A stretch of DNA of 64,000 nucleotides from an uncultured Synergistales bacterium. Lineage in GTDB: Bacteria; Synergistota; Synergistia; Synergistales; Aminobacteriaceae. The DNA is taken from positions 62,001 through 126,000 of the forward strand of contig CAJOMU010000004.1 in assembly GCA_905235735.1 (NCBI GenBank), in the 5' to 3' direction. A program made the position numbers and the translations under genes. The notes beneath the pieces were generated by a model. The model was given only the letters and a program-made list of their open reading frames with translations. It was not told the DNA's origin and searched no databases. Positions 14,399-50,332 of this stretch are shown piece by piece (the first letter of the stretch is position 1; each line of letters starts with the position of its first letter).

Positions 14399-17300
14399 TT
14401 ACTCTGCTGCTTCCTCTTTCGCGTTTGATTCTGCAGCTTCATTAAGTCCATCTTCAGTTAAAACTTCTCCTGATTCTGCATCCTCTGCCTTAACAGCGAT
14501 TACAGGGCTATATGTTACGTTCGCTCTGAGCCACGGATACACCGCAACGATCTTATTCTCTGGAACGACTTCAGTATCTTTTCCGTCAATTTCAAAGAAG
14601 TCGATTATTGCATCATCCTCTGATCCTGCATCATTCGGGAATGCGAACCAGTAGAGTTTTGCTCCTGCTTTCACATTCTCTGAAAGATCAACCTCGAAGC
14701 CGTACTGACCATCTGCTGTTGCGCTTATCTCAGGAAGGATTGCCGCGATTACGTATCCGCCTTCACTGAGTATCTGAGACTGTCCTGCAGTGATTGATGA
14801 TACAGTGCGTTCTTCACCGAGTGTTACTTCACCTTCGCCGAGTTCAGCAGTAAGTTCATCATTGGTTACGATGTCCTCTTCAAGCTCTGATGTCTCACCG
14901 ATTGTTTCATCTTCAGGTGTTTCATTGAGGTTAGCAGGCAATGAGGTAACGAGATTGCCCAAGCTAGTCATTGAAACCTTGATGTCCTGAGAGAATACAG
15001 TCTTATTTTTACTTCCGTTGTTTGTAACTGTCAGTCTGTATGTCGCTGAGATGTCGTTTGATGCAGCTACAACAGCACCGTCTCTACTCACAAGCTGTAT
15101 TCCCTTGCTTATCGTTGCTGTGAGTGTAGCTTTGTTCTCGTTGTCTCTTCCGTTTTCTTTGACCTTCGCAACCTTCATCTTGATACGACTATCGCCGCTT
15201 ACGAAACTCACTCTCCATGTAGTTTTTGAAGTGCCGCTTGCATCTTTGCCCGATGCGAGTATTACAGTGGTATCTTTTGAAGCTGCCGCAGAAAGTTTAG
15301 CTTTCGTGTCATAGCCAGGACTCGTCAGGGTTATCTCGCTCACGTTTGGAAACTCTGGTTCAGGGTCATACACAGTGAACTTCACACTGCCGGTTTTTAC
15401 ATTGCCCATATGGTCAACGGAAACGGTTACGCTCTTGTTCTTCACTGCCTTCGAATTAGCTGCATTTCCGTCAAACGTAATCTTGCCGTCATTAGCGAGT
15501 TCTATACCAGTCACATCATAGTTGGCGAAAGTTTTCCCGTTCGCAACTGCCCACTTCATATCTGCACTATCGCCGCCGGTCGCAACAAGATAATCACTGC
15601 TTGCTGTCCCTCTGACGAATTCAAGAGACTTCGTTGTGATTGTAGGCTTGCCACCTTTTACACCGATCTTGAAGTCTACAGGCTGTGAAATACCAGCAGC
15701 ATTACCAGCTACTACCTTGAAGTCAAACGAAGCATATGCTGTTCCGTTCTTCGTTATCTTAGTTTCTGCAGTGCTTCCTCCTGCTATACCCTTTATCGTT
15801 CCCTTGCTGGTATCAAATGTCAGACCAAGTTTCGTTAAATCAGCTGAGTTATGCAGTGAATCGCTTGCAAGATCCCATGAGATCGGAGCTGTACCTGATG
15901 ACGTAGAGAACGTAATGCTAATGCTCTTTCCGCTCTCAACTTCCTTATCATAGTTGCCTGTTCTGATTGTCGGAGCATCCTGACCGATAAACGTTATTGC
16001 AGTCTTCACCTGACCTGCCGCATTCTTTCCCGTTATGCTGATTTTCGTCTTCTTCGCTTCACTGCCGTCAGCCGTCGTAATCGTAACAGTCGCTCCATCA
16101 TCCGTATCTGCGCTCGTAATCGTGAGTCCTGCTGTGCCACTCTTAGGCGAAATAGTCAGGGCTATGGGCTTATCTCCGCTGATCGTGATTGTCTTTAATG
16201 TCCCTGCAACCCCTGCTTTGAAGGTAACTTCACCCAAATCCGCGCTTGTCGTCTTTGCATTGTCATACCAAATCTCAGGAAGTGAACCGTCAACTTTGAG
16301 CTTGAATGTCTTCACAACTGGCTTACCGATTCCATTATCCGCTGAGACAGTAACAGTGAGGCTCTTGAACGCAAGGCTGTTTGCACCCTTCGTGAGTATA
16401 ACTTTCTTTCCTCCGTCTATGTCTTCTGATTCCAGCTTGAGCTTAGTGTTTGCGGCTGTATCTTCTTCTGCACCCAGAACAATCTCATTCGCAGGAAGTC
16501 CGGCTGCCTTCGCATCAGAAGCCTTGATGTACGCACAAACCTCAATGGGCTTCGTTCCTGTAACATCAATCTTGTATTCCTGAGATGCTTTTGTGGTTGC
16601 TGCTGTGGTCGGAGTCATTGTACCGAATCTAGGGGCTGAACCCTTCAGCGTTATCTTTGCGTCCTTGCTTACAGCTCCTGCAGGGCCTGATCCTGTAACT
16701 ATTGCATTCACCGTATCGACACGTTTACTGCCTGACACAGGAAGCACATCAAGTGATCCAGTGATTTTGCCCGTTGAAGCCTCAAGCGTTAAGCCTTCAG
16801 GAAGTTTATTGTCAGGAAGATCCGTTGAAACTGACCATTCAGTAATGCTCGTGCCCTTGAACTCATTGGTGTATGCACTGCCAAGCGTGATAGGCTTGAA
16901 TGTCGCTGATGAAATCTTCGGTAATGCATAAACAGCAAACTTATCCGTTGATGCTGACGTGCTGAGTTTCGTGTTGGGATCAGTTGCCGTTATCGTTATG
17001 ACATCTCCGTCCTTCGTTGCCGCAGTGAATTTTCCTGAAATTGTCGCTAACGTAGGATCATCTTTATTCGGCGTAAGTTTCAATCCGCTGGGAAGTTTCG
17101 TTGCCTTCCATGTTACAGGGCCGTCCGCAGAAATCGTAAGTGATGCGAATTCATCTCCGACTTTGAACTCTCCGCCTGCCTTGAATGCATCAGCTGAGAT
17201 TGTTGGAGCTGGAGCAGTGATGTTGAACTTCAACGCTACTGTGTCATTGCCTGCACCGTTGGAGGCTCTGAATGTTACGCTCTTATTCTTCGCTGATTCT

Positions 17301-18985
17301 TCTGGTTTTCCGTAGATTGTGAGAGTGCCATTGCCATTATCTTTGCTCTCAATTCCCTTAGGCAATGTACCCTGTGATATATCCCACGAAATTTTTGTGC
17401 CCGGTGCTGAAGCCTTAAGCGTTACACCATTGTCTTTTGATACATTTGTTCCCTTCGTGAGCTCCAAATCATCAAGCAATGTCTGAGGAGTTCTCTTGTC
17501 GCTGATTGTTGGTTTCATTGGGAGGAATTTCAGCGTCTTCTTAACATCCTTCGAGGCTGTGAACGCCGCATTTCCGAGTTTGAATGTTATCGTCTTATCC
17601 ACTGAGGTGTCAGAACCGAAATAGATTTTGTCAGTATCAGAAGCATCCGTACCTATGTTGCCTTCATCTTCAGCGAGTTTACCCGAAATCGTCAGCTTAT
17701 CAGGATCGAATTCGAATCCCGTCGGTAAACCCTCCGCAGTAACTGAAACAGAATGTTCATTCGTTCCGCCAGACACTGTTAATCTCTGAGTGTACGTTTT
17801 GCCGTAGGTAACATTATTCAGATTCGCCGTTGTTATGTCTGGTGAACCAAGAACTGTAAGCGTGAAGGTCTTCGTATTCTTGCCGTAAGAGTTCTGAGTT
17901 TGCAGAGCAATGTTATACGTTCCTGCTACCTTCGGAGTTCCTGATAGAGTGTAAGTGAACCTCTGAGGATCATCTCCGCTTGGTGTTGAAGCTGTCGTCA
18001 TGCTGAGACCTGTTGATGACGGAAGCCCTGTTACAACAAGAGGTTGTATTCCTATTTCTCCTGCCGGCGATTTCGGCGATGCACTTACGGTCGCAAACTC
18101 AACAGCCTTAATTGGTGTACCAACTCCCGGAACAGTTACGCCGTCTGGTGCTGCAAGTGAAGTTATGTCTGTTGAGGCCGGGCTGTTGATGCTCGGAGCA
18201 ATTCCGGCTATCTTCAGTGTGAACTCTTTCGTTGTTGTCCCTTTCACTACGGTCGTTGACGAGCCTTTTTTATCATTCGTTGCTGTAACTTTGAACTTTT
18301 GGCCTGTAGTTGATGTCGGTTTCAGGAGCTTATCTGACGAGAGTATCAGGTCTCCGCTTGCATCATTGCTTACTGTAATTCCGTAACCATTGAGGATGGT
18401 CTGAACATCAGACGTAACTGTCATGTTGACGAATTTATCCATAGAGTCCTTATTGCCCGTTACGCTGATCACTTGATAATATGTGTCGCCGTGTTTGCCG
18501 TCAGCAATCTTTGTCGTTGTGATCTTTGGATCTGATTTTTGAAGAGGTGGCACAACAGTTATAGTTAAAGTAACTGCGCTTCCAAAAGTATCCGTCCTGC
18601 CTTCTCCTCTTAATGCTTTTAACTTAAATTGAAATGCACCACTGGAAGAGGGTTTTCCACTAACTGTAACGCTCCCTACACCATTGTTAGTCGTAATTGT
18701 AACATTTAAACCTGCTTTTTTTATCGCAGCTTCTGCTGTTATGTCGGTGGAAAACACAGCAGCAGTCTGATATTCATTCTCATCCCTCATATAAACGTAC
18801 TGAACCGTTTGTGTTCTTGTCTCATTCTGAATAAATCCAGTATACTCAGACCCGTTAGGTACTCCATCCTTACTAGTACCATTCCATAACTCTATAGCTG
18901 CATAAGCTCCTGAGACAAACGTAAGAGAAAGTATCATACTCAAGAGCATAGCAAGACCTATAGTACGCCTTCCATTTTTCACCAT
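14399..18985 (-). CDS. Giant exported protein with Ig-like repeats (copy 1)
   Basis: This 1528-residue exported protein starts at the ATG at 18985, which has AAGGAGG five bases upstream; the frame is open further upstream but without a ribosome site. A signal peptide (basic start, hydrophobic LAMLLSMILSLTFVSG, cleavage after AYA) is followed by about a dozen beta-sandwich repeats of roughly 90 residues. Many fit the putative Ig (He_PIG) pattern, GLPxG-L followed by ISG-P and TF-L-V. The C-terminal ~130 residues (GGYVIAAILPEI, YWFAFPNDA, NVTYSPVIAVK) are shared with the protein at 45437. There is no LPXTG, S-layer or Synergist-CTERM signal, so the attachment mode is unknown. It is likely a surface adhesin or matrix protein. 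Confidence 0.88.
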   Translation of the reverse strand: MVKNGRRTIGLAMLLSMILSLTFVSGAYAAIELWNGTSKDGVPNGSEYTGFIQNETRTQTVQYVYMRDENEYQTAAVFSTDITAEAAIKKAGLNVTITTNNGVGSVTVSGKPSSSGAFQFKLKALRGEGRTDTFGSAVTLTITVVPPLQKSDPKITTTKIADGKHGDTYYQVISVTGNKDSMDKFVNMTVTSDVQTILNGYGITVSNDASGDLILSSDKLLKPTSTTGQKFKVTATNDKKGSSTTVVKGTTTKEFTLKIAGIAPSINSPASTDITSLAAPDGVTVPGVGTPIKAVEFATVSASPKSPAGEIGIQPLVVTGLPSSTGLSMTTASTPSGDDPQRFTYTLSGTPKVAGTYNIALQTQNSYGKNTKTFTLTVLGSPDITTANLNNVTYGKTYTQRLTVSGGTNEHSVSVTAEGLPTGFEFDPDKLTISGKLAEDEGNIGTDASDTDKIYFGSDTSVDKTITFKLGNAAFTASKDVKKTLKFLPMKPTISDKRTPQTLLDDLELTKGTNVSKDNGVTLKASAPGTKISWDISQGTLPKGIESKDNGNGTLTIYGKPEESAKNKSVTFRASNGAGNDTVALKFNITAPAPTISADAFKAGGEFKVGDEFASLTISADGPVTWKATKLPSGLKLTPNKDDPTLATISGKFTAATKDGDVITITATDPNTKLSTSASTDKFAVYALPKISSATFKPITLGSAYTNEFKGTSITEWSVSTDLPDNKLPEGLTLEASTGKITGSLDVLPVSGSKRVDTVNAIVTGSGPAGAVSKDAKITLKGSAPRFGTMTPTTAATTKASQEYKIDVTGTKPIEVCAYIKASDAKAAGLPANEIVLGAEEDTAANTKLKLESEDIDGGKKVILTKGANSLAFKSLTVTVSADNGIGKPVVKTFKLKVDGSLPEIWYDNAKTTSADLGEVTFKAGVAGTLKTITISGDKPIALTISPKSGTAGLTITSADTDDGATVTITTADGSEAKKTKISITGKNAAGQVKTAITFIGQDAPTIRTGNYDKEVESGKSISITFSTSSGTAPISWDLASDSLHNSADLTKLGLTFDTSKGTIKGIAGGSTAETKITKNGTAYASFDFKVVAGNAAGISQPVDFKIGVKGGKPTITTKSLEFVRGTASSDYLVATGGDSADMKWAVANGKTFANYDVTGIELANDGKITFDGNAANSKAVKNKSVTVSVDHMGNVKTGSVKFTVYDPEPEFPNVSEITLTSPGYDTKAKLSAAASKDTTVILASGKDASGTSKTTWRVSFVSGDSRIKMKVAKVKENGRDNENKATLTATISKGIQLVSRDGAVVAASNDISATYRLTVTNNGSKNKTVFSQDIKVSMTSLGNLVTSLPANLNETPEDETIGETSELEEDIVTNDELTAELGEGEVTLGEERTVSSITAGQSQILSEGGYVIAAILPEISATADGQYGFEVDLSENVKAGAKLYWFAFPNDAGSEDDAIIDFFEIDGKDTEVVPENKIVAVYPWLRANVTYSPVIAVKAEDAESGEVLTEDGLNEAAESNAKEEAAE

Positions 18986-19253
18986 AAAAACCTCCTTAAA
19001 TTTTTTTTCTTGACTTATCGGCTCGCGGATGAGAGAATGAGTACCGAAAAATCGAGAGAAAAAATTGAATTTTGAGTGTAAAAATAATTTCCTATGATAC
19101 TTTTGCGCAATAAAAAAAGTTATCACGAAAAAGCATCGCCCTATGTGCGCGTTTTGCTATGGTTATTTTTTCGCGTACCTCCTTTCGCATTATTTTATGT
19201 GTCGGATGTTTTTTTGCATTGCTTTACTTTCGGGTATCTTATCATTCATATTT

Positions 19254-20021
19254 TCAAACTGCAAGATTGAAAGTATTTCTGTTGATGTTATATTTCACCT
19301 TCCAGAACCATAAACCACATGCAGGAACGTTCATAGCTGATTCAATTCTTTCTCCTCCCGATAACAATCCTTCAAGCCATTCGAGATTACGTTTCCCTGA
19401 TGCTATTTCGTTTACGTTCCCAACGATTATGCGTACCATGTTAGTCAGGAATGATTGTGCCTTAATGCTTATGATTGAGAGTTTGCCTCGCTTGCGTATC
19501 CTGAGTGTATCAATCGTTCTGTATGGGTCATCAGGACATTCACCGGCTCTGCAGAATGCTCTGAAGTTGTGCCTGCCCTGAATCATTTCACATGCCTTCC
19601 TTGCAAGTGTCATATCCCATTCATGGCCTTTACGCCACCAGACGAAATTATTCATGAACGGAGGACAGACGTAATCATTCCAGATGAAATATTTGTATTC
19701 GCGTGAGACAGCAGAGTATCTTGCACTGAAGTCATCGGGAACGTGATAGATTTTCATTATGCGAATGTCTTCGGGAAGATAGAAGTTAATTGCGAGGCGT
19801 AATTTGTCGGGAGTGAAATCTTTTGCGAGTTCAAAACTTGCAACCTGTCCGTATGCATTAACACCCTTATCTGTACGTCCTGCACCTATGATTCTGACAG
19901 GAGCACCTGAGATTTTCCCAAGTGCCCCTTCGATTACTTCCTGAATACTTAATGCATCGGGCTGAATCTGCCAGCCTGAATAATTTTTGCCGAGATAGCT
20001 TATTTTTGCGGCATACTTCAT
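19254..20021 (-). CDS. truA: tRNA pseudouridine(38-40) synthase
   Basis: TruA makes pseudouridine at positions 38-40 of the tRNA anticodon arm. The protein has 255 residues. The catalytic aspartate is D51 in GRTDKGVNAYG; GWQIQP near the start and the LTNMVRIIVGNVNEIA segment are typical. In related phyla truA follows the rplQ-ecfA-ecfT genes directly; here a small-protein/GNAT pair separates it from ecfT. Only nine bases separate it from the GNAT stop. Confidence 0.96.
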   Translation of the reverse strand: MKYAAKISYLGKNYSGWQIQPDALSIQEVIEGALGKISGAPVRIIGAGRTDKGVNAYGQVASFELAKDFTPDKLRLAINFYLPEDIRIMKIYHVPDDFSARYSAVSREYKYFIWNDYVCPPFMNNFVWWRKGHEWDMTLARKACEMIQGRHNFRAFCRAGECPDDPYRTIDTLRIRKRGKLSIISIKAQSFLTNMVRIIVGNVNEIASGKRNLEWLEGLLSGGERIESAMNVPACGLWFWKVKYNINRNTFNLAV

Positions 20022-20030
20022 TCGTTACAC

Positions 20031-20603
20031 CTAGATGAACCTCAACAGCTGATTCAAATTAACGTTATCCTGAGTTATTCGCGAATTGAAAAACTTGAAG
20101 CCGTTCTGATGATAAAAATTCATAAGCTGCGGTTTATCTTCGCATTCAAGAAATTCAATGACCCCTCCAAGAAAATATTTAGCATGAAAGATAATATCAT
20201 GTGCCATATTCAGAAGAGCAGAACCATTTATGCGCTTGTCTTCTGGAAGAGCGAAATTTTTTCCAAGCTGTGCGATAAAATATGCCGATGCCGTGTATGT
20301 ACTTGTATCTTCATTGAGAACTGAAACCCGCGAAATTTTTCTGCGCATAGAATTACTCAGTACAGAAGCTAGAACAGATATAGGTTTTACGGCTATGGAA
20401 AAGTAACCTGCCAGTTCAAAATTATCCTCTGAGAACACAAGATAAGTAACTGACTGGTCTTTTCTCGTGAAATTAACAGAATTGTGCAGTAAAAATTTTT
20501 CAACATCATGATTTATCGGGCATGAAAAGCTCATCAATATATCATTAAGTTCTTCGTTATCAATGTATGCCCTAATATTAACGACTGAATACTTTTCTGA
20601 CAT
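20031..20603 (-). CDS. GNAT-like acetyltransferase of a two-gene module (copy 1)
   Basis: This 190-residue protein is paralogous to that at 44243. Shared stretches include CPINHDVEKFLLHN / CAPNSDVEHFLKHN, RKDQSVTYLVF / KKDQSVTYFVF, IRRKI-type and AQLGKN. The C-terminal part, FLECEDKPQLMNFYHQNGFKFF, looks like GNAT motif B. Its start overlaps the upstream small gene by 26 bases and has no good ribosome site, so it is probably translated by coupling. The size and pairing resemble GNAT-type toxin-antitoxin systems, but the target is unknown. Confidence 0.75.
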   Translation of the reverse strand: MSEKYSVVNIRAYIDNEELNDILMSFSCPINHDVEKFLLHNSVNFTRKDQSVTYLVFSEDNFELAGYFSIAVKPISVLASVLSNSMRRKISRVSVLNEDTSTYTASAYFIAQLGKNFALPEDKRINGSALLNMAHDIIFHAKYFLGGVIEFLECEDKPQLMNFYHQNGFKFFNSRITQDNVNLNQLLRFI

Positions 20604-20781
20604 GATGCTTTTTCCAGTTTTCCATAAGATTCATAATCTCTTTTCCGTCCGTCAGTAACTTTCCGATTGAAGGCTGTCGTTCTGTTCTGTCCTGTTCAGC
20701 CTCATCAAGTGCATTAATGAAACGCACAGCACTTTCCGTATCGGTAATCACGAAATTATGCATAATGCTTGAAGTAGCCAA
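20578..20781 (-). CDS. Small partner protein of the GNAT module (copy 1)
   Basis: I start this 67-residue protein at the TTG at 20781. AGGAG lies nine bases before it, and the product then begins MATSSIM, aligning with MATSSIF of the copy at 44850. An ATG at 20790 is too close to the ribosome site. The pattern is a short beta strand (HNFVI), a helix (ESAVRFINALDEA), a variable loop and a second helix. It is charged and could be an antitoxin or a GNAT partner. It begins 17 bases after ecfT. Confidence 0.7.
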   Translation of the reverse strand: MATSSIMHNFVITDTESAVRFINALDEAEQDRTERQPSIGKLLTDGKEIMNLMENWKKHHVRKVFSR

Positions 20782-20797
20782 AAATCTCATCTCCTGT

Positions 20798-21568
20798 TCA
20801 TATAATGAATACTAACACTCCTGCAATCACTCCCGAAAGAATAACTGCACATGTATCTTTGAATTTCCAGACTAACGGCTTTCGTCTCGTCCTTCCTTCA
20901 CCGCCGTTATACCCTCGTGCTTCCATCGCAATAGCAATCTCATCTGCCCTCCTGAATATTATAACGAACAGAGGTATCAGTACAGGCATGAACGCCATAG
21001 CACGCTTAAAGATATTCCCCTGATCCAGTCTTGCACCTCGTGATAGCTGTGCTCGTATTATCTTGTCTGTCTCCTGCATCAGTAACGGAATGAATCGAAG
21101 TGCCATAGCAATCATCATCGAGCATTCATGAACTGGAAATTTGAATCTCTCAAGAGGATACAGCATAGCATCAAGACCGTCTGCGAGTTCCAGAGGTGCA
21201 GTAGTGAGAGGAAGCATTACGGCAAAGAGCATGAGAATGAAAAGCCTGAACGACATAAATAGCGCGTGAGCCAGAGCATTGATGAACGAATCACTGAATA
21301 AACCAGCTATTATGTTGAATACGAACGTGAATATCACGAGGAACATAACAGGTTTAGCTGAACGCAGCAGTGAAGGCCATGAAATTTTTGACGCATGAAC
21401 CAGAACGAACAAAATTAATGTCCATATGGCAATTTCAGGGACATTATCTGCGGGAAATACGGCGGATACAATGAACATAAGCGAGAAAAATTTAGCTCTT
21501 GGGTCAAGGCTGTGAATAAATGAATCTGTTGGTATGTACTGTCCTAAAGTTAAGTTTGCGAAATTCAT
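20798..21568 (-). CDS. ecfT: ECF transporter transmembrane subunit
   Basis: EcfT is the membrane scaffold of energy-coupling-factor vitamin transporters and links ATPases to substrate-binding S proteins. It has 256 residues with several membrane segments. The two coupling-helix motifs are present as LSRGARLDQG and AMEARGYNGG. Its ATG overlaps the TGA of the ATPase gene. No S component lies nearby, so it probably serves several S proteins encoded elsewhere, as in group II systems. Confidence 0.93.
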   Translation of the reverse strand: MNFANLTLGQYIPTDSFIHSLDPRAKFFSLMFIVSAVFPADNVPEIAIWTLILFVLVHASKISWPSLLRSAKPVMFLVIFTFVFNIIAGLFSDSFINALAHALFMSFRLFILMLFAVMLPLTTAPLELADGLDAMLYPLERFKFPVHECSMMIAMALRFIPLLMQETDKIIRAQLSRGARLDQGNIFKRAMAFMPVLIPLFVIIFRRADEIAIAMEARGYNGGEGRTRRKPLVWKFKDTCAVILSGVIAGVLVFII

Positions 21569-42428: not shown

Positions 42429-43598
42429 ATGCTAGTACATTCTATTCGGCTGAACAGTTTTTTAAGTTACAGTGAGAAGAGTAATCTCATTAAGTTAAAG
42501 AATCTAAATGTTATTATTGGCCCTAATGGTTCTGGAAAATCTAATCTCATCGAAGCATTTGACTTGCTGCGTTCTGCACCTCGTGATCTTAGAACTCCTA
42601 TACGCGATGGAGGAGGCGTTCGTGATTGGCTATGGAAAAATAGTAATAACTCTTTCTCGAATGCAAAAATTGAAGCGGTCTTCGATAACCCCAAAGGCAA
42701 AAGAAACCTGAGATACAGCCTTTGCTTTACGGAAGAAGCTCAGAAATTCATCATCACAGATGAAAGAATTGAAGGTGAGTATCCAGATAGTGCAGATAAA
42801 TCTCAGCCATATCTTTACTACGAATTTCATGGCGGAAGGGCAACAATAAATGTCCGTGATCATTACCGGAAACTTCAAACCGAAGATATAGACCCAACAC
42901 AATCCATTTTGGCACAGCGCAAAGATCCCGATCAATACCCGGAACTCACATATCTTGGTGATGTTCTGCCGAAAATACGTCTATATAGAAACTGGAGTTT
43001 CGGACGTTACACACCTCCGCGTTTACCTCAGAAAACAGATCTTCCAAGTGATGTGCTTGAATCTAACGCGGAAAATCTTAGTCTCGTTCTAAATTCGTTT
43101 AATGATTTCTCTAAAGAAAAGAAAAATCTTATGACTGCCCTGCGTGAATTATATTCGGGGATAGACGATTATTACCTTAAGATTGAAGGAGGAACAGTAC
43201 AGTTATTCCTTCGTGAGGGCGAACGCAGTATCCCGGCAACTCGTCTCTCTGATGGAACGTTACGTTTCTTATGCCTGTTATCGTTTCTCTGTCATCCAAG
43301 TCCTCCTCCGCTCGTCTGCATTGAAGAACCTGAATTAGGCTTGCACCCTGACATATTGCCGGTCTTGGCCAATCTTCTCAAAGATGCCTCCAATCGATGC
43401 CAGCTTATTGTTACGACGCATTCTGATGTCTTAGTTGATGCTATGAGTGATCAGCCTGAAGCTGTAGTTGTTGCGGAAAATTTCGGAGATGGAACGACAC
43501 TTCAGAGACTTAATGCGACGGAATTGAAGCCTTGGCTTGAGAAGTATAGATTAGGTCAATTGTGGACGCAGGGACATATCGGAGGTACACGATGGTAA
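42429..43598 (+). CDS. AAA/ABC-type ATPase of a two-gene defence-like module
   Basis: This is a 389-residue RecF/SMC/OLD-like ATPase. Walker A is GPNGSGKSN (31-39), the ABC signature is LSDGT (273-277), Walker B with catalytic glutamates is CIEEPE (297-302) and the switch histidine is in THSD (330-333). RSAPRDLRTPIRDGGGVRDWLW is characteristic of ATPases paired with DUF4276 proteins. Its end overlaps that partner gene by seven bases. Pairs of such ATPases with TOPRIM-like proteins are common in phage defence; here this is inference. Confidence 0.88.
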   Translation: MLVHSIRLNSFLSYSEKSNLIKLKNLNVIIGPNGSGKSNLIEAFDLLRSAPRDLRTPIRDGGGVRDWLWKNSNNSFSNAKIEAVFDNPKGKRNLRYSLCFTEEAQKFIITDERIEGEYPDSADKSQPYLYYEFHGGRATINVRDHYRKLQTEDIDPTQSILAQRKDPDQYPELTYLGDVLPKIRLYRNWSFGRYTPPRLPQKTDLPSDVLESNAENLSLVLNSFNDFSKEKKNLMTALRELYSGIDDYYLKIEGGTVQLFLREGERSIPATRLSDGTLRFLCLLSFLCHPSPPPLVCIEEPELGLHPDILPVLANLLKDASNRCQLIVTTHSDVLVDAMSDQPEAVVVAENFGDGTTLQRLNATELKPWLEKYRLGQLWTQGHIGGTRW

Positions 43599-44227
43599 TT
43601 GCAAAAATTTTCGTTGAGGGCGGCGGAGATGCAAATCTTCTCAGAACAAATTGCCGTAAAGGCTTCTCAAATTTCCTCAAGAAAGCAGGTTTAGAGGGAT
43701 TTATGCCTCGCATTGTTGCCTGCGGAGGAAGAGAAGCTACATTTAATTCTTTCTGTACAGCGATTAAAAACGGGGAGAATGCATTCCTCTTAGTGGACAG
43801 TGAAGAACCTGTGAAAGCAGAATATCAAAATGGATCTCCAGAAACATGGAAACCTTTTTCACATCTTCAAGAGAGAGACAAATGGGACAAGCCGCAGAAT
43901 GCAGATGAAACACACTGCCATCTTATGACGCAGTGCATGGAGACATGGCTCATAGCAGACAGAAATGCTCTCGCAAAATACTTCAGCAAACATTTCAATG
44001 CTAATGCTCTTCCTGCATTGGGAACTGACCTTGAGGCCAAGACCAAAAGTGATATTTATGACATTTTGAGACGAGCCACATCACGATGCAATAAGCACTA
44101 TGACAAAGGGGATAATTCATTCGAGATTCTTGAAACCATTGATCCCGCTATTGTAACTTCACAATGTGCGTGGGCAAAACGTTTCGTTGATATTCTAAAG
44201 GTGAAGTTGAAAGAATTATCGCGATAA
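43592..44227 (+). CDS. DUF4276 TOPRIM-like partner of the ATPase
   Basis: This is a 211-residue DUF4276-type protein. The start at 43592 has GGAGG six bases upstream and overlaps the ATPase stop. The TOPRIM pattern is present: a strand ending in glutamate (FVEGGGD, E9) and a later D-x-E (FLLVDSEEP, D69 and E71), which would bind metal. MPRIVACGGREATF and METWLIADRNAL are typical of the family. I infer a nuclease or nucleotide-acting effector driven by the ATPase; activity is not shown. Confidence 0.85.
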   Translation: MVIAKIFVEGGGDANLLRTNCRKGFSNFLKKAGLEGFMPRIVACGGREATFNSFCTAIKNGENAFLLVDSEEPVKAEYQNGSPETWKPFSHLQERDKWDKPQNADETHCHLMTQCMETWLIADRNALAKYFSKHFNANALPALGTDLEAKTKSDIYDILRRATSRCNKHYDKGDNSFEILETIDPAIVTSQCAWAKRFVDILKVKLKELSR

Positions 44228-44242: not shown

Positions 44243-44863
44243 TCATATTATTCTGAACATTTGAACAAGTTCATTATTGTTCATACTGTGGGTGGCGAGA
44301 AGATGAAAACCATTGTGTACGTAAAAATCAATCAGCTTCTCGTTATCCTCAGTCTCAACAAACACAACCGTACCTCCAACAAGATATTGCGCCTGTCTTG
44401 ATAGATTCAACGCCGCATTCAGAAGTTCATCTCCCGTGATTAATTCGTTCAATCCGTTTCTGTAATTCTTCCCTAACTGAGCTACAAGGTACGCTGACAT
44501 TGTATAGTTCTGTTTCGATTCGTCCAGCCTGCATATACGTTCTATTTTCCTTCGTATTGTATTGCTTGGAATGTCGCTTGATTGAATAATCAAAGGTTTC
44601 GTTGTAACTGTGAAATAACTAACCGGCAGTGTAGCATCTGAAAATCCATCTGCAATATCATCTTTGGGAAAAACAAAGTACGTTACCGATTGATCCTTCT
44701 TCGTGAAGTCGATTGCATTATGCTTCAAGAAATGTTCAACATCACTGTTAGGTGCACAAGTAAACTGCGCAATTATCCTTAACAGCCAGTCTTCTCCCAA
44801 CCCTCTAGAATCCCTCAACGCATCTCTGAAACTCACATAGAAAAACGCATTATTCCTGTCCAT
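44243..44863 (-). CDS. GNAT-like acetyltransferase of a two-gene module (copy 2)
   Basis: This is a 206-residue paralogue of the protein at 20031. Shared elements include SDVEHFLKHNAIDFTKKDQ, SVTYFVFPKD, a TTKP strand, NTIRRKIERI and YLVAQLGKNYRN. The C-terminal GNAT-like part is FVETEDNEKLIDFYVHNGFHLL. It overlaps the small upstream gene by 14 bases, so the two are coupled. It is convergent with the ATPase/DUF4276 pair, 15 bases apart. Confidence 0.78.
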   Translation of the reverse strand: MDRNNAFFYVSFRDALRDSRGLGEDWLLRIIAQFTCAPNSDVEHFLKHNAIDFTKKDQSVTYFVFPKDDIADGFSDATLPVSYFTVTTKPLIIQSSDIPSNTIRRKIERICRLDESKQNYTMSAYLVAQLGKNYRNGLNELITGDELLNAALNLSRQAQYLVGGTVVFVETEDNEKLIDFYVHNGFHLLATHSMNNNELVQMFRII

Positions 44864-45071
44864 AATTCGCCTCTTTTAGTCTCTCTTCTGCTTCAAGCCT
44901 CTCAACACCCTTCTTTAATCTAATGAAAAGAGTTTCAATCTCTTTCGGATCTGTGAGAAGTCTCGCATTAGGTTCAATTGGTTCTGGTTCACTGTCCAGC
45001 AGATTCACAAACGCTTCAACTTCCTCTTTGCCCTTTATCACAAACGTCTTAAATATGCTTGATGTTGCCAT
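44850..45071 (-). CDS. Small partner protein of the GNAT module (copy 2)
   Basis: This 73-residue protein begins MATSSIFKTFVI, as does copy 1 at 20578. A beta strand, a helix (KEEVEAFVNLLDSE), a Pro/Glu loop and a long charged helix (PKEIETLFIRLKKGVERLEAEE) follow. GAGGAG lies 11 bases before the ATG. It precedes and overlaps the GNAT gene, the usual antitoxin position. I see no classic DNA-binding motif, although strand-helix-helix would fit a ribbon-helix-helix fold. Confidence 0.75.
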   Translation of the reverse strand: MATSSIFKTFVIKGKEEVEAFVNLLDSEPEPIEPNARLLTDPKEIETLFIRLKKGVERLEAEERLKEANYGQE

Positions 45072-45436: not shown

Positions 45437-48400
45437 ATGAAAACAAAGAAGCGTTTTATTGGGTTCGCAGTCGTTGCAGGGTTCTTGTTATCTTTGGCAG
45501 GAAGTGCGTGGGCAGCGTATACTAAGTCTGCGATTAACATGCGAGAGAATGAGACTCCATTCGAGAAAGCAGAAGTAGATGCAACTTATAATCAGACAGT
45601 GAAGTACATATATGCTTCGTCTAGTGGAAGCGTAACAACTGCATACTTTTTTTTAGGAAGCAGTTCAAGCTCATACGCAAATAACGGTACTGCGGGTCCA
45701 GATTCGCTGGATTTAGGAAGTGGTCTTTCCGCAACTGTCGCTACAAGTTCTAATATAGCTTCTCTTACGATATCTGGAAAACCAACGTCATTAGGTGATA
45801 TATCGTTTAAGCTCTGGAGGAGTTCAGCAGCTCTCACTAGTAAGCTCACAAATGTTGCTTATTTAGACATTACAATTTCTGTTAAAGAAGCCTACAGCGC
45901 ACCAAAAGGTAAACCAGCATTCAAGACAGCAACAAAACTTGCGGATTGTGAGATTAATGATTCTTTCGAATACACTATTGAAGTTACAGCAAACCAGAGC
46001 GGAGTAGCTGATATAGAGCTTGGTGATCTTCCAGAAGAAACTGAAAGTGGCATAAACGAACTCACAATAACCGAGACAGGGGACAACAAAGCAACTCTAA
46101 CAGGTACGCCTAAGTCAACGGGTACATTCACAATTCCTATTAAAGCAAAATGGGATGAAACAAAAAGCGGAGGCGAAGTACCAGAAGATGAAACAACAGC
46201 TAACTTCACGCTCAAAGTTACAGGCATAAAACCCTCAATTACAGCAACAGCAGGCGGCACAGAAGTTGAATCCGGCGGCGACCTTTCAGCAGGTTTCGAC
46301 GTAGACGGCGTTGATGACGAGGGCACAGTAGTTGCAACTACAGCCATGAAGGATGGCGGAATTGTCTTCACAGCAACAGGCTCAAAGGGAAATAAGTTCG
46401 ACATCACAGTATCAGGGCTTCCAACAGGCATGACAGCAACAAAGGGCAAAGTTACCAAGAATGAAGATGAAACGATGTCCGACTTAACTGCAACCATAAC
46501 CGGCAGCCCAACCAAAGCAGGAACGTACACCATCAAAGTTTACGGAACAAATGATGACGGAAAAGGCGATGAAGTATCGTACACTCTCAAGGTATCATCA
46601 AATCCTGACCTCTCCAGCCTGAAGCTCTCCGATGTAACGTGGGGTACAGCATACAATGCAACACTCACAGCTAAGGGACTTCAGACCGGCGAAAAAGTTA
46701 CGTGGTCAATCGAAGACCCTGAAGAGGGTGCAAAAGGAAACTGGCTGAAGACATCTGATTTCGGAGACGATGGAACAACCGGCCTCACTCTTGATTCTGA
46801 GACAGGGAAAATCTCAGGAACATGGGACAAAATGGATTCTGATACAGAGGGAGTTGGAGTTGCTTTAGGTTCAGCAAAGGACAAGACCTACAATCTGAAA
46901 ATTAAGGCTACACTCGGAAAAGCAGAACCTACAAAGACAGTTACGCTGAAGTTCAAAGCCGCAAAACCGACAATCGGAACACCTAAATTAGATGACTCTG
47001 AACTAGATGGTGCGGCAGAATTTGACTATGATGCTGAAGCGGCACAAGAACTCAAAGTTTCAGCAAAAGGTCCCGGAAAAGTTAAACTGAGTGCTTCAGG
47101 GTATCCTAAATGGATGACAGTTACATCAGGAACAGATGAAGAAACCAAAGAACCCACGCTCACAATCACGGGTACACCTACGGAACTTGCAAGCAATGCA
47201 TCATTCACACTTACGGCAGAAAATGCTGCTGGAAAAACAACGTCCACAATAAGATATTCTGTTACCGGCACATTGTATTGGGACACTACAGAAGAAGGGG
47301 CTGTTGATCCTACTGGAGAAGGTACACTCCCGGACGGAGCATACAAGAAAGGTGAAGACATTACAGCAGAGGGTTCAAACCTTAACGTAGAAGCTCTTCC
47401 AGGAAACGCAAAGGCAGATGCGCTAGGTACAATTACACTCTGTGCGAGACCAGGCCCGATTCAGTGGAAAGCTACGGGACTTCCTGCAGGCGTAACACTC
47501 ACGCCAGACAAGAAAAACGGTACAATTGCATATCTCTCAGGAAAGCCTACAGCAGTAACTACGAAACTTGATGATGACGGAGAGAGCAAGTACACGATAA
47601 CGGCAACGAATACAGTTACCCGAAAGTCGCTTGACCCGATAACCAAGAGCATAGTCGTTTACGATACGCCTGTCATCACTACTAAAACTCTTCCAGCACT
47701 CTCAACTGGCAAGAACTATTCAGCGAAACTTGCGGTATCGAACGCACAGTTCAACGCAAAATGGACTGTAGGATTCGGCGAAACTGAAGATGAAGCAAAA
47801 GCAGACACTACAGGGAAAATAACAATTGGAGACGGAACTCTTGAGTTTGACTCTGATACACTCACGATCACTGGAGATTCAGACATTAACAGAGTGAAAA
47901 ATGTCTATGTTTACATCAAAGTTGAGAACCCTGCAGGTGAGGATGAAGATACATTGTCCATCACCGTTAAGGGAGTTGCCGCGAAGATTGATAACGTAAC
48001 ATTCGGAGATCTCGCTGACGAGGAAAGCATAGAGTTCACAGCAACAGGTACTCAGCCAATCACAATGACTGCATATATCGATAAAGCGGCGGCCAAGTCG
48101 ATGTTCGGAGTTACTGACGGAACAAGCATTGATCTCTCAGATGAAGATAACGTTGCTAAACTTGTGTTCGCACCTAATACAGGCACATCCAATGTAGGCG
48201 CAAGAAAGAAGAATGTAGGTAAAGCTCCTGTAAACGTGAAGGACGGTGAAGGGACAGAAGATAACGGAACTGGACAGCTCTCTGCTGCTGATGGCTTGAA
48301 AGCTATCTATAAGAATGTTCCTGTAACGATTGCTGTCATTAACGCTGGAATGACTAAACCTGCGACTAAGGTCTTCAAGATCAACTACACGCCTAACGAC

Positions 48401-50332
48401 TACGAGAAACCTTCTCTGACAGTCAACGGTACGGCACTCGAAGAAGACCCCGATCCGATTCAGGGTAAGGCTGGCGAGGATGTAGCAAACTACGTGATAA
48501 CTGTGGAAGGAACTGATCCGATCGACATCAAGGTAAGCGGTGCGGCAAAAGATACTGCAGAGGAAGGCGTAAAAGCAGCAGTAAGCGACAAGACCATAAC
48601 GATCAGCGGAAAATATCCTGCAGACAAAGAGAGCAAGACCACGATAACGGTAACGGCAACGAACACATCAACGAAGGATAAAGTTTCTCGCAAGTTCACG
48701 TTTGTGGGAGCACTTGCACCGTCAATCACAACTGCAGAATCAGGACTTAAGAAGGAAGTTGAGGTCGGAAAGTCTGTAAATATTTCACTCGCCGCAAAAG
48801 GAACGAAAACACTCACATGGTCAGTTGCAAACGACACATTATTACCTGATGGGCTTATGCTGGATACTGAAAAGGGCAAGATTTCAGGAACGCCTACAGC
48901 ACCGACAGTTAACGACGCAGGAGAATATGAACCTGCTGTTGTTCCTATCAAGGTAGAAAACGCTGCCGGAGATGATACGAAAGACGTAACGATTGGTGTC
49001 AAAGGCAAGAAAGCAACCCTCAAGACGAAGACCGTTACGATTCAGAAGGGCGACGACCTTGCAAACGAGTTAACAGCTGCAGCACTTGAAGTATCCGGCG
49101 TTGATGATACTGACACTGTGAAAATAACTCCTGCTGAAACGATAGTCAACAAGGTCAGCGATGGAGGCGAAGCAGAGACAGCAAAACTCACAGCACTTGG
49201 CCTTACGCTTGCTAAGGACGGCACATGGACAGGTCCAGATCTCATTGCAACAAAGGGAACGAGCGTTAAACTTGCAGTCGAGAACATCGGAACGATAACA
49301 ACTGGCAGCGTGAAGATCATCATCAAGGATGTACCTCCAGAGATTGAATGTGATGATAGTGCAAGCAGGATTAATATTGAAGGCAGTGCAACAGGCGCAG
49401 TTACGAAAACTTACGAACTTTCAATCAAGGACGGCACAGTAACAGGTGATACTGCGGTAAACTGGAAAATTTCAAAGAAACCTTCAAAGATTCAGGCAAC
49501 AATCACGCCGAGCAAGAAGACCGACGATGCAATAGCTGGTGCAACTGCTACACTGACGGTTACAGTTCCGAAAGGTTTCAAGAACAATCAGAAGAAGGAT
49601 ACGGCAAACCCTGTAGTTGACGAAGAAACCGGAAAGAAAACGTATCACTACACGGATGAGTATCTCTACACAGAATTAACTGTAACGCTGACGAACAACA
49701 GCACAAAAGACACTGGCGAAATGGTCTTCAAGTTCAAGGTAAAACCAGCTGAACCAACTGCAAAAGATATGGCCGACTTTAATGTTGAGCCTGGTGAAGA
49801 TCCTGACGATGAAGACAGTGAAGTAGAAAATACGAATGCTCTTCCTCAAAACGTTACGGAGAATAAATCAGAAGCCGATGAAGCTGAAGCAGACGAAAGA
49901 CTCATAGTCGGTGAAGCAAGAACTGCAGACAGCCTCACAGCCAGTGAACGTGCATTCCTCGCTGAGAATGGATATGTCATCGCGGCAATCCTTCCTGAGG
50001 TGAAAGCAACTGAAAGCGACTGGTACAATATGAACGTTGCACTCGCAGAAGAAGCACCCAAAGGCGGAGAACTCGTGTGGTTCGCATTCCCCAGAAATGC
50101 AGAAGCTACAGAGGACGATGAAGCAGTGTTCTACGATGCAGAAGGCGCAGAGATTACTTCAGTCCCAGAAGAACACAAAGCGGAAGTGTCTGCATGGTTA
50201 AATGAGGACGTAACATATGCACCTGTTATCGCAGTCAAAGTTGATAACGCAACAGGAGCAAAAGATACTCTCAATGACGCAGACGCAGGAGACGTTGTAA
50301 CTGAAGATGCATTGAAAGAAGCAAAAGAGTAA
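45437..50332 (+). CDS. Giant exported protein with Ig-like repeats (copy 2)
   Basis: This is a 1631-residue exported protein, paralogous to the one at 14399. GGGAGG nine bases upstream supports the ATG. The signal peptide (MKTKKRFIGFAVVAGFLL, cleavage near AWA) is followed by an N-terminal domain with NQTVKYIYAS and then about a dozen beta-sandwich repeats with the He_PIG-like pattern (GLPTGM, ITGSPTKAGTYTIKV, LPAGVTLTPD). The last ~130 residues (NGYVIAAILPEV, LVWFAFPRNA, DVTYAPVIAVK) match copy 1. The chain is rich in Thr, Lys, Glu and Asp. No anchor motif is seen. A surface adhesin role is inferred. Confidence 0.88.
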   Translation: MKTKKRFIGFAVVAGFLLSLAGSAWAAYTKSAINMRENETPFEKAEVDATYNQTVKYIYASSSGSVTTAYFFLGSSSSSYANNGTAGPDSLDLGSGLSATVATSSNIASLTISGKPTSLGDISFKLWRSSAALTSKLTNVAYLDITISVKEAYSAPKGKPAFKTATKLADCEINDSFEYTIEVTANQSGVADIELGDLPEETESGINELTITETGDNKATLTGTPKSTGTFTIPIKAKWDETKSGGEVPEDETTANFTLKVTGIKPSITATAGGTEVESGGDLSAGFDVDGVDDEGTVVATTAMKDGGIVFTATGSKGNKFDITVSGLPTGMTATKGKVTKNEDETMSDLTATITGSPTKAGTYTIKVYGTNDDGKGDEVSYTLKVSSNPDLSSLKLSDVTWGTAYNATLTAKGLQTGEKVTWSIEDPEEGAKGNWLKTSDFGDDGTTGLTLDSETGKISGTWDKMDSDTEGVGVALGSAKDKTYNLKIKATLGKAEPTKTVTLKFKAAKPTIGTPKLDDSELDGAAEFDYDAEAAQELKVSAKGPGKVKLSASGYPKWMTVTSGTDEETKEPTLTITGTPTELASNASFTLTAENAAGKTTSTIRYSVTGTLYWDTTEEGAVDPTGEGTLPDGAYKKGEDITAEGSNLNVEALPGNAKADALGTITLCARPGPIQWKATGLPAGVTLTPDKKNGTIAYLSGKPTAVTTKLDDDGESKYTITATNTVTRKSLDPITKSIVVYDTPVITTKTLPALSTGKNYSAKLAVSNAQFNAKWTVGFGETEDEAKADTTGKITIGDGTLEFDSDTLTITGDSDINRVKNVYVYIKVENPAGEDEDTLSITVKGVAAKIDNVTFGDLADEESIEFTATGTQPITMTAYIDKAAAKSMFGVTDGTSIDLSDEDNVAKLVFAPNTGTSNVGARKKNVGKAPVNVKDGEGTEDNGTGQLSAADGLKAIYKNVPVTIAVINAGMTKPATKVFKINYTPNDYEKPSLTVNGTALEEDPDPIQGKAGEDVANYVITVEGTDPIDIKVSGAAKDTAEEGVKAAVSDKTITISGKYPADKESKTTITVTATNTSTKDKVSRKFTFVGALAPSITTAESGLKKEVEVGKSVNISLAAKGTKTLTWSVANDTLLPDGLMLDTEKGKISGTPTAPTVNDAGEYEPAVVPIKVENAAGDDTKDVTIGVKGKKATLKTKTVTIQKGDDLANELTAAALEVSGVDDTDTVKITPAETIVNKVSDGGEAETAKLTALGLTLAKDGTWTGPDLIATKGTSVKLAVENIGTITTGSVKIIIKDVPPEIECDDSASRINIEGSATGAVTKTYELSIKDGTVTGDTAVNWKISKKPSKIQATITPSKKTDDAIAGATATLTVTVPKGFKNNQKKDTANPVVDEETGKKTYHYTDEYLYTELTVTLTNNSTKDTGEMVFKFKVKPAEPTAKDMADFNVEPGEDPDDEDSEVENTNALPQNVTENKSEADEAEADERLIVGEARTADSLTASERAFLAENGYVIAAILPEVKATESDWYNMNVALAEEAPKGGELVWFAFPRNAEATEDDEAVFYDAEGAEITSVPEEHKAEVSAWLNEDVTYAPVIAVKVDNATGAKDTLNDADAGDVVTEDALKEAKE

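Follow-up and report, generated by a model that had tools for sequence, protein, structure and literature searches.

A recurrent two-gene module of a GNAT-fold acetyltransferase and a small partner protein, probably an unnamed toxin-antitoxin family, in a Synergistales genome and in phages and plasmids

The window analysed here, a stretch of 64,000 nucleotides from an uncultured Synergistales bacterium, carries two overlapping genes on the reverse strand between ecfT and truA, referred to below as pair A. The first gene (20578..20781, TTG start, MATSSIMHNFVI...) encodes a small partner protein of 67 aa, the proposed antitoxin, and was called from its open reading frame, an AGGAG motif and a family-like N-terminus. 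The second (20031..20603) encodes a GNAT-fold acetyltransferase of 190 aa, the proposed toxin, called from its open reading frame, a match to PHROG 1758, a profile search of the PDB, a structural model and Foldseek. On the same strand the pair is preceded by ecfT, a CbiQ-type transporter subunit (20798..21568, Pfam CbiQ, E 1.3e-33), and followed by truA, a tRNA pseudouridine synthase (19254..20021, Pfam PseudoU_synth_1, E 2.2e-33). A preliminary description of this DNA had reported overlapping genes of 67 and 190 residues separated from ecfT and truA by gaps of 17 and 9 bases; the open reading frames are as claimed, with an overlap of 26 nt, and the gap of 9 nt on the truA side holds, whereas the gap on the ecfT side is 16 nt. 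The small gene has an alternative in-frame ATG at 20790 that would give a product of 70 aa. The AGGAG (Shine-Dalgarno) motif lies 9 nt upstream of the TTG and leaves no gap before the ATG; an N-terminus of the MAT type found in the family (MATSS) results from the TTG start alone. Since both the spacing and the N-terminus favour the TTG we regard 67 aa as the better call, the ATG being ruled out by its Shine-Dalgarno spacing. As there is room for only 16 nt upstream, pair A probably relies on the promoter of the ecf-truA operon; scans for promoters and inverted repeats around pair A and the second pair described below returned nothing convincing. The GC content of pair A is 36.8% compared with 42-45% for its neighbours.

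The earlier claim that ecfT and truA normally adjoin is mostly right. A truA gene was found in 40 of 43 congeners, and among the 19 in which ecfT could be placed the two genes adjoin in 16 (gap of up to approximately 90 nt) but are separated in the other three by an SGNH/GDSL hydrolase gene. In a fourth congener such a gene also lies beside truA (hydrolase genes in this position are seen at L128 794-1504 and also in L130, L139 and L147). The GNAT/small gene pair occupies the junction in the window's genome only; ecfT overlaps truA in a close relative (G046), and in the closest relative (G083, truA 93% identical) the junction holds an SGNH hydrolase gene. Because ecfT and truA adjoin or flank this gene in close relatives, the junction is a variable site and pair A a lineage-specific acquisition. 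Pair A probably replaced the SGNH hydrolase gene, since that gene has no match in the window's genome and the sequence immediately preceding truA, GTGTAACGAATGAAG as against GTGAACGAATGAAG in G083, resembles its last codons, a comparison that covers about 10 bases.

The window contains a second pair on the reverse strand, pair B, whose small gene (44850..45071, ATG start, MATSSIFKTFVI...) encodes 73 aa and overlaps by 14 nt a gene for a GNAT-fold acetyltransferase of 206 aa (44243..44863) that was called from its open reading frame, its paralogy and PHROG 1758. The two pairs are clearly paralogous, as had been proposed from the sequence, with 41% identity between the GNAT proteins (E 8e-46) and 43% between the small proteins (E 7e-10). 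A third pair is found in the same genome on another contig (C33; L003 1474-2249), where it sits within an island that includes a radical-SAM-like gene fragment and a gene for a cysteine-rich small peptide. Of the 43 genomes of the genus, 22 have between one and four matches, some of which are shortened or contain stops. Adjoining pair B in convergent orientation is a candidate two-gene defence system, HEC-01 (window 42429-44227), made up of an AAA_21 ATPase matching HEC-01A (E 1e-174) and a DUF4276 protein matching HEC-01B (E 2e-76) in PADLOC.

The small gene and the enzyme gene form a recurrent two-gene module. Among loci with at least 300 nt of upstream sequence, an ORF of 40-110 aa starting with MAT lies directly upstream of the enzyme in 107 of 109 relatives, compared with 4 of 234 unrelated control ORFs from the same DNA; the 109 loci include many near-identical C. 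difficile phages, with 34 of 79 left at 93% identity, and two couples of loci (L004/L019 and L005/L017) apparently represent the same genomes from two collections. The upstream MAT genes encode 54-73 aa, and one of the two exceptions encodes the same protein with a start of MST. Public annotation agrees, nine of ten annotated phage and plasmid relatives having an annotated MAT gene of 54-64 aa directly upstream (for phiC2 the annotation begins a few codons ahead of the MAT), and in the tenth, a Solobacterium phage, the small gene is present and unannotated. The linkage also holds in the other direction, as 27 of 29 small-protein profile matches in the genus adjoin a GNAT gene or part of one. 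The two genes overlap in relatives mostly by 1-4 nt, and the distances between enzymes and between partners correlate (Mantel r 0.72 versus a permuted maximum of 0.34). Partner exchange seems to occur, since a distant relative of the enzyme on a Helicobacter plasmid (L187 833-1547) has an unrelated upstream partner of 69 aa without the MAT motif.

With regard to mobility, phage records (21) and plasmid records (53) both contain members of the family, which also occurs on satellite phages and at varied chromosomal sites. Its hosts include C. difficile phage phiC2, phages and satellites of Staphylococcus and Streptococcus and a Latilactobacillus phage, together with Acinetobacter plasmids of 6.7-20 kb, on some of which, including plasmids of 6.7 and 8.2 kb, the pair lies near replication genes. 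In a rumen Synergistaceae genome (L005 2922-4956) the pair adjoins what by eye appears to be a TnpB gene of the IS605 type, which might serve to mobilise it.

The downstream product had been described as GNAT-like, and both the sequence profile and the structural model bear this out, matching GNAT toxins of toxin-antitoxin (TA) systems. The enzymes match PHROG 1758 ('acetyltransferase'; E 8e-32 for pair A and 1.5e-32 for pair B) and none of the curated GNAT families of Pfam and NCBIfam, while none of the four proteins of pairs A and B matched the PADLOC defence library. When a profile of 14 relatives was searched against all PDB sequences (E up to 1), the 12 entries recovered were all acetyltransferases, with GmvT the best (E 5e-8). 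We assigned these matches, partly by entry titles, to the type II TA toxins GmvT, TacT, TacT3, AtaT, AtaT2 and KacT, some of the entries being ones that we take to belong to this class. Vaccinia H7, seen at E 0.09 in a single-sequence search of the PDB, was a chance match that was gone with the profile. The AlphaFold model of the pair A enzyme, built with window and contig-derived sequences, has a pLDDT of 95.6, and in a Foldseek comparison with the PDB the best 31 of 268 matches (E up to 0.001) are all GNAT TA toxins, below which rank all the housekeeping GNATs and the N-terminal and polyamine acetyltransferases. A fold search of BFVD returned only generic viral GNATs. A strong match to a housekeeping acetyltransferase, which would have spoken against a toxin, was therefore not found, as no curated family matched and TA toxins outranked all others.

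At the level of single residues, Y164 within the motif FYxxxGF is invariant in 36 of 36 enzymes and aligns to Y144 of AtaT, the residue mutated in 6gtp (Y144F), and is thus the counterpart of the catalytic tyrosine of TacT (Y140), KacT (Y145) and AtaT (Y144). Also invariant are QLGKN, which includes Q112, and G127. The strict R/Q-x-x-G-x-G/A motif of the acetyl-CoA loop is absent and is represented by QLGKN...(I/L)TG, which lacks the first Gly and keeps the last. Because the pyrophosphate loop is kept only in part, the use of acetyl-CoA is likely rather than certain, and backbone contacts could suffice for binding despite the altered loop. The two GNATs of the window are acidic (pI 5.5-5.9) whereas relatives are mostly basic (median 8.6), which weakens a tRNA target for these two enzymes in particular. 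Both genes are under purifying selection, pN being 0.24-0.26 in the enzyme and 0.31-0.35 in its partner at saturated pS.

The small partner is less readily placed. That of pair A gave weak matches to PHROG 6339 and 3291, both of unknown function, and NCBIfam returned no match; searches of 14 partners against Pfam (E up to 1) gave scattered chance matches only, with no DUF1778, DUF4065 or helix-turn-helix (HTH) domain, and weak matches to FliT, BssS and others were rejected as inconsistent from member to member. Neither a sequence match nor a fold match was found in the PDB. The model (pLDDT 80.8) consists of two helices, at 15-30 and 46-66, joined by a linker and preceded by an extended N-terminus, and the length of this linker gives a spacing that is not that of a ribbon-helix-helix. 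In the aligned partners M-A-T is invariant while the rest of the protein is approximately 37% conserved. As the members of this alignment were gathered by requiring M-A-T, its invariance is better judged from the 107 of 109 count and from position 5, which was not used in selection and is S or T in 36 of 36. No DNA-binding domain was detected in the small partner and no clear operator palindrome upstream of pair B, and for these reasons the autoregulation usual in type II systems is unsupported here.

Taken together these results support the toxin-antitoxin reading first suggested from the gene layout, with profile matches exclusively to TA toxins, the fold, the invariant tyrosine, the co-occurrence of the two genes and patchy, decaying copies all in its favour and the role of toxin a predicted one. 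We consider it likely that the two genes constitute a mobile, type II-like TA module in which a GNAT toxin that acetylates aminoacyl-tRNA is held in check by a small antitoxin. In such a module the toxin would transfer the acetyl group of acetyl-CoA to the alpha-amino group of at least one aminoacyl-tRNA and so block translation, while the small antitoxin encoded by the first gene would bind newly made toxin and keep it inactive, with the overlapping and translationally coupled genes helping the antitoxin to catch the toxin. The pair may act as an addiction or anti-invader module for mobile elements, which the Synergistaceae chromosome would have captured several times. By homology, acetylation of aminoacyl-tRNA by the enzyme and silencing of the enzyme by its partner are the most likely activities; toxicity, neutralisation, formation of a complex, the tRNA target and the biological role are inferred.

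For the silencing itself we can offer only a tentative and doubtful suggestion, namely that the small protein represents a new class of antitoxin acting through its exact N-terminus, the Ala-Thr amino group entering the GNAT active site. Exposed by removal of the Met, the Ala-Thr end might mimic or act as a decoy for the amino group of aminoacyl-tRNA, and the antidote might then inhibit the toxin or itself be acetylated, a DNA-binding domain being unnecessary in either case. The suggestion has a single basis, the invariance of M-A-T amid variable flanking sequence.

The same contrast between an invariant M-A-T and a poorly conserved remainder would also suit a substrate-modifier pair, in which the GNAT protein is a dedicated N-terminal acetyltransferase and the small protein its substrate, acetylated at the Ala-Thr end after Met removal, so that the pair regulates the element or its host without poisoning. 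N-terminal acetyltransferases of the Ard1 type are among the fold matches that come next after the TA toxins, and other functions have been allowed for GNATs outside the 'true TA clade' (Bikmetov 2022, PMC9177977). We think this unlikely, however, as TA toxins outrank every N-terminal acetyltransferase by both sequence and structure, and small plasmids, satellites, patchy copies and decay suit addiction modules better. Quite unlikely, too, is a phage superinfection-exclusion or anti-host module, in which the enzyme would hit translation or transcription of the host or of a rival phage with the small protein as accessory or activator. In Staphylococcus, Streptococcus, Clostridioides and Latilactobacillus phages and satellites the pair does lie beside lysis genes, an integrase or phage ends, and pair B adjoins the HEC-01 candidate, but such contexts are not specific since TA modules share these places and can be defensive, and both genes lack a match in the defence library. 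An ordinary metabolic or resistance acetyltransferase beside an unrelated small neighbour is very improbable, for although the GNAT superfamily is very broad and public records say only 'acetyltransferase', the two-way linkage of the genes across phyla, profile matches exclusively to TA toxins, which rank first in sequence and fold alike, and the lack of any curated NCBIfam GNAT family all oppose it.

The proposed toxin-antitoxin module shares with TacAT, KacAT, AtaRT and GmvAT the order antitoxin then toxin, the gene overlap, the size of the toxin, the GNAT fold and the FYxxxGF tyrosine; these systems are likewise mobile and multi-copy and their toxins are its best sequence and structure matches. 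It differs from the GNAT-DUF1778 systems in that its small partner has neither a DUF1778 Pfam match nor a ribbon-helix-helix, its acetyl-CoA loop is divergent and Bacillota, a group described as almost devoid of GNAT toxins (Bikmetov 2022, PMC9177977), are well represented in the family. That survey described DUF1778 and DUF4065 partners of GNATs, and in its VcaAT (GNAT-DUF4065) the DUF1778 antitoxin is swapped for an unrelated one, as is proposed here, whereas the partner in the present family is an unrelated protein of 54-73 aa with a MAT N-terminus and no DUF4065 match. The GNAT-Xre/HTH systems PacTA, CheTA and GacTA also join a GNAT to a regulator-type partner, and CheTA likewise occurs on Acinetobacter plasmids, but their partners carry a helix-turn-helix for which our small partner has no Pfam match; the CheTA antitoxin being an HTH protein, identity with CheTA of Acinetobacter is ruled out, and in PacTA the gene order is reversed and PacT acts on Fur. 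As the partner is not of the DUF1778, DUF4065 or helix-turn-helix type, we judge the pair to be a variant of the GNAT TA kind in which the antitoxin is new, and file it outside the named subfamilies.

The pair had been put forward as undescribed and without a name. We found no family name, and searches of the available literature library for a name, a printed form of the N-terminal motif, a tested member or an experiment on the family returned none, so that this is probably an unnamed TA family; the enzyme, however, is already catalogued in phages as PHROG 1758, the same enzyme family, and similar pairs have been mentioned. Outside the 'true TA clade', Bikmetov 2022 (PMC9177977) noted TA-like GNAT pairs whose short ORFs are divergent and without DNA-binding domains, and left open whether these are TA systems with unidentified antitoxins; compared by description only, our family fits these pairs. 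The PHROG catalogue does not link the enzyme with the small partner (weak matches 6339/3291) as a module or call them TA, and as no Pfam, NCBIfam or PADLOC model could be matched, current annotation misses the family. If our reading is true, GNAT acetyltransferases that the 2022 survey left unassigned would gain a partner family, and the range of GNAT toxins would come to include Bacillota together with phages, satellites and plasmids, among them those of Staphylococcus, Streptococcus, Clostridioides and Acinetobacter. The antitoxin would also be one that lacks a DNA-binding domain and whose invariant N-terminus hints at another mode of silencing the toxin.

The window also encodes two very large, repetitive and secreted-looking proteins whose ends are similar (approximately 1575 and 1631 aa), one near pair A (14399-19126) and one near pair B (45437-50332).
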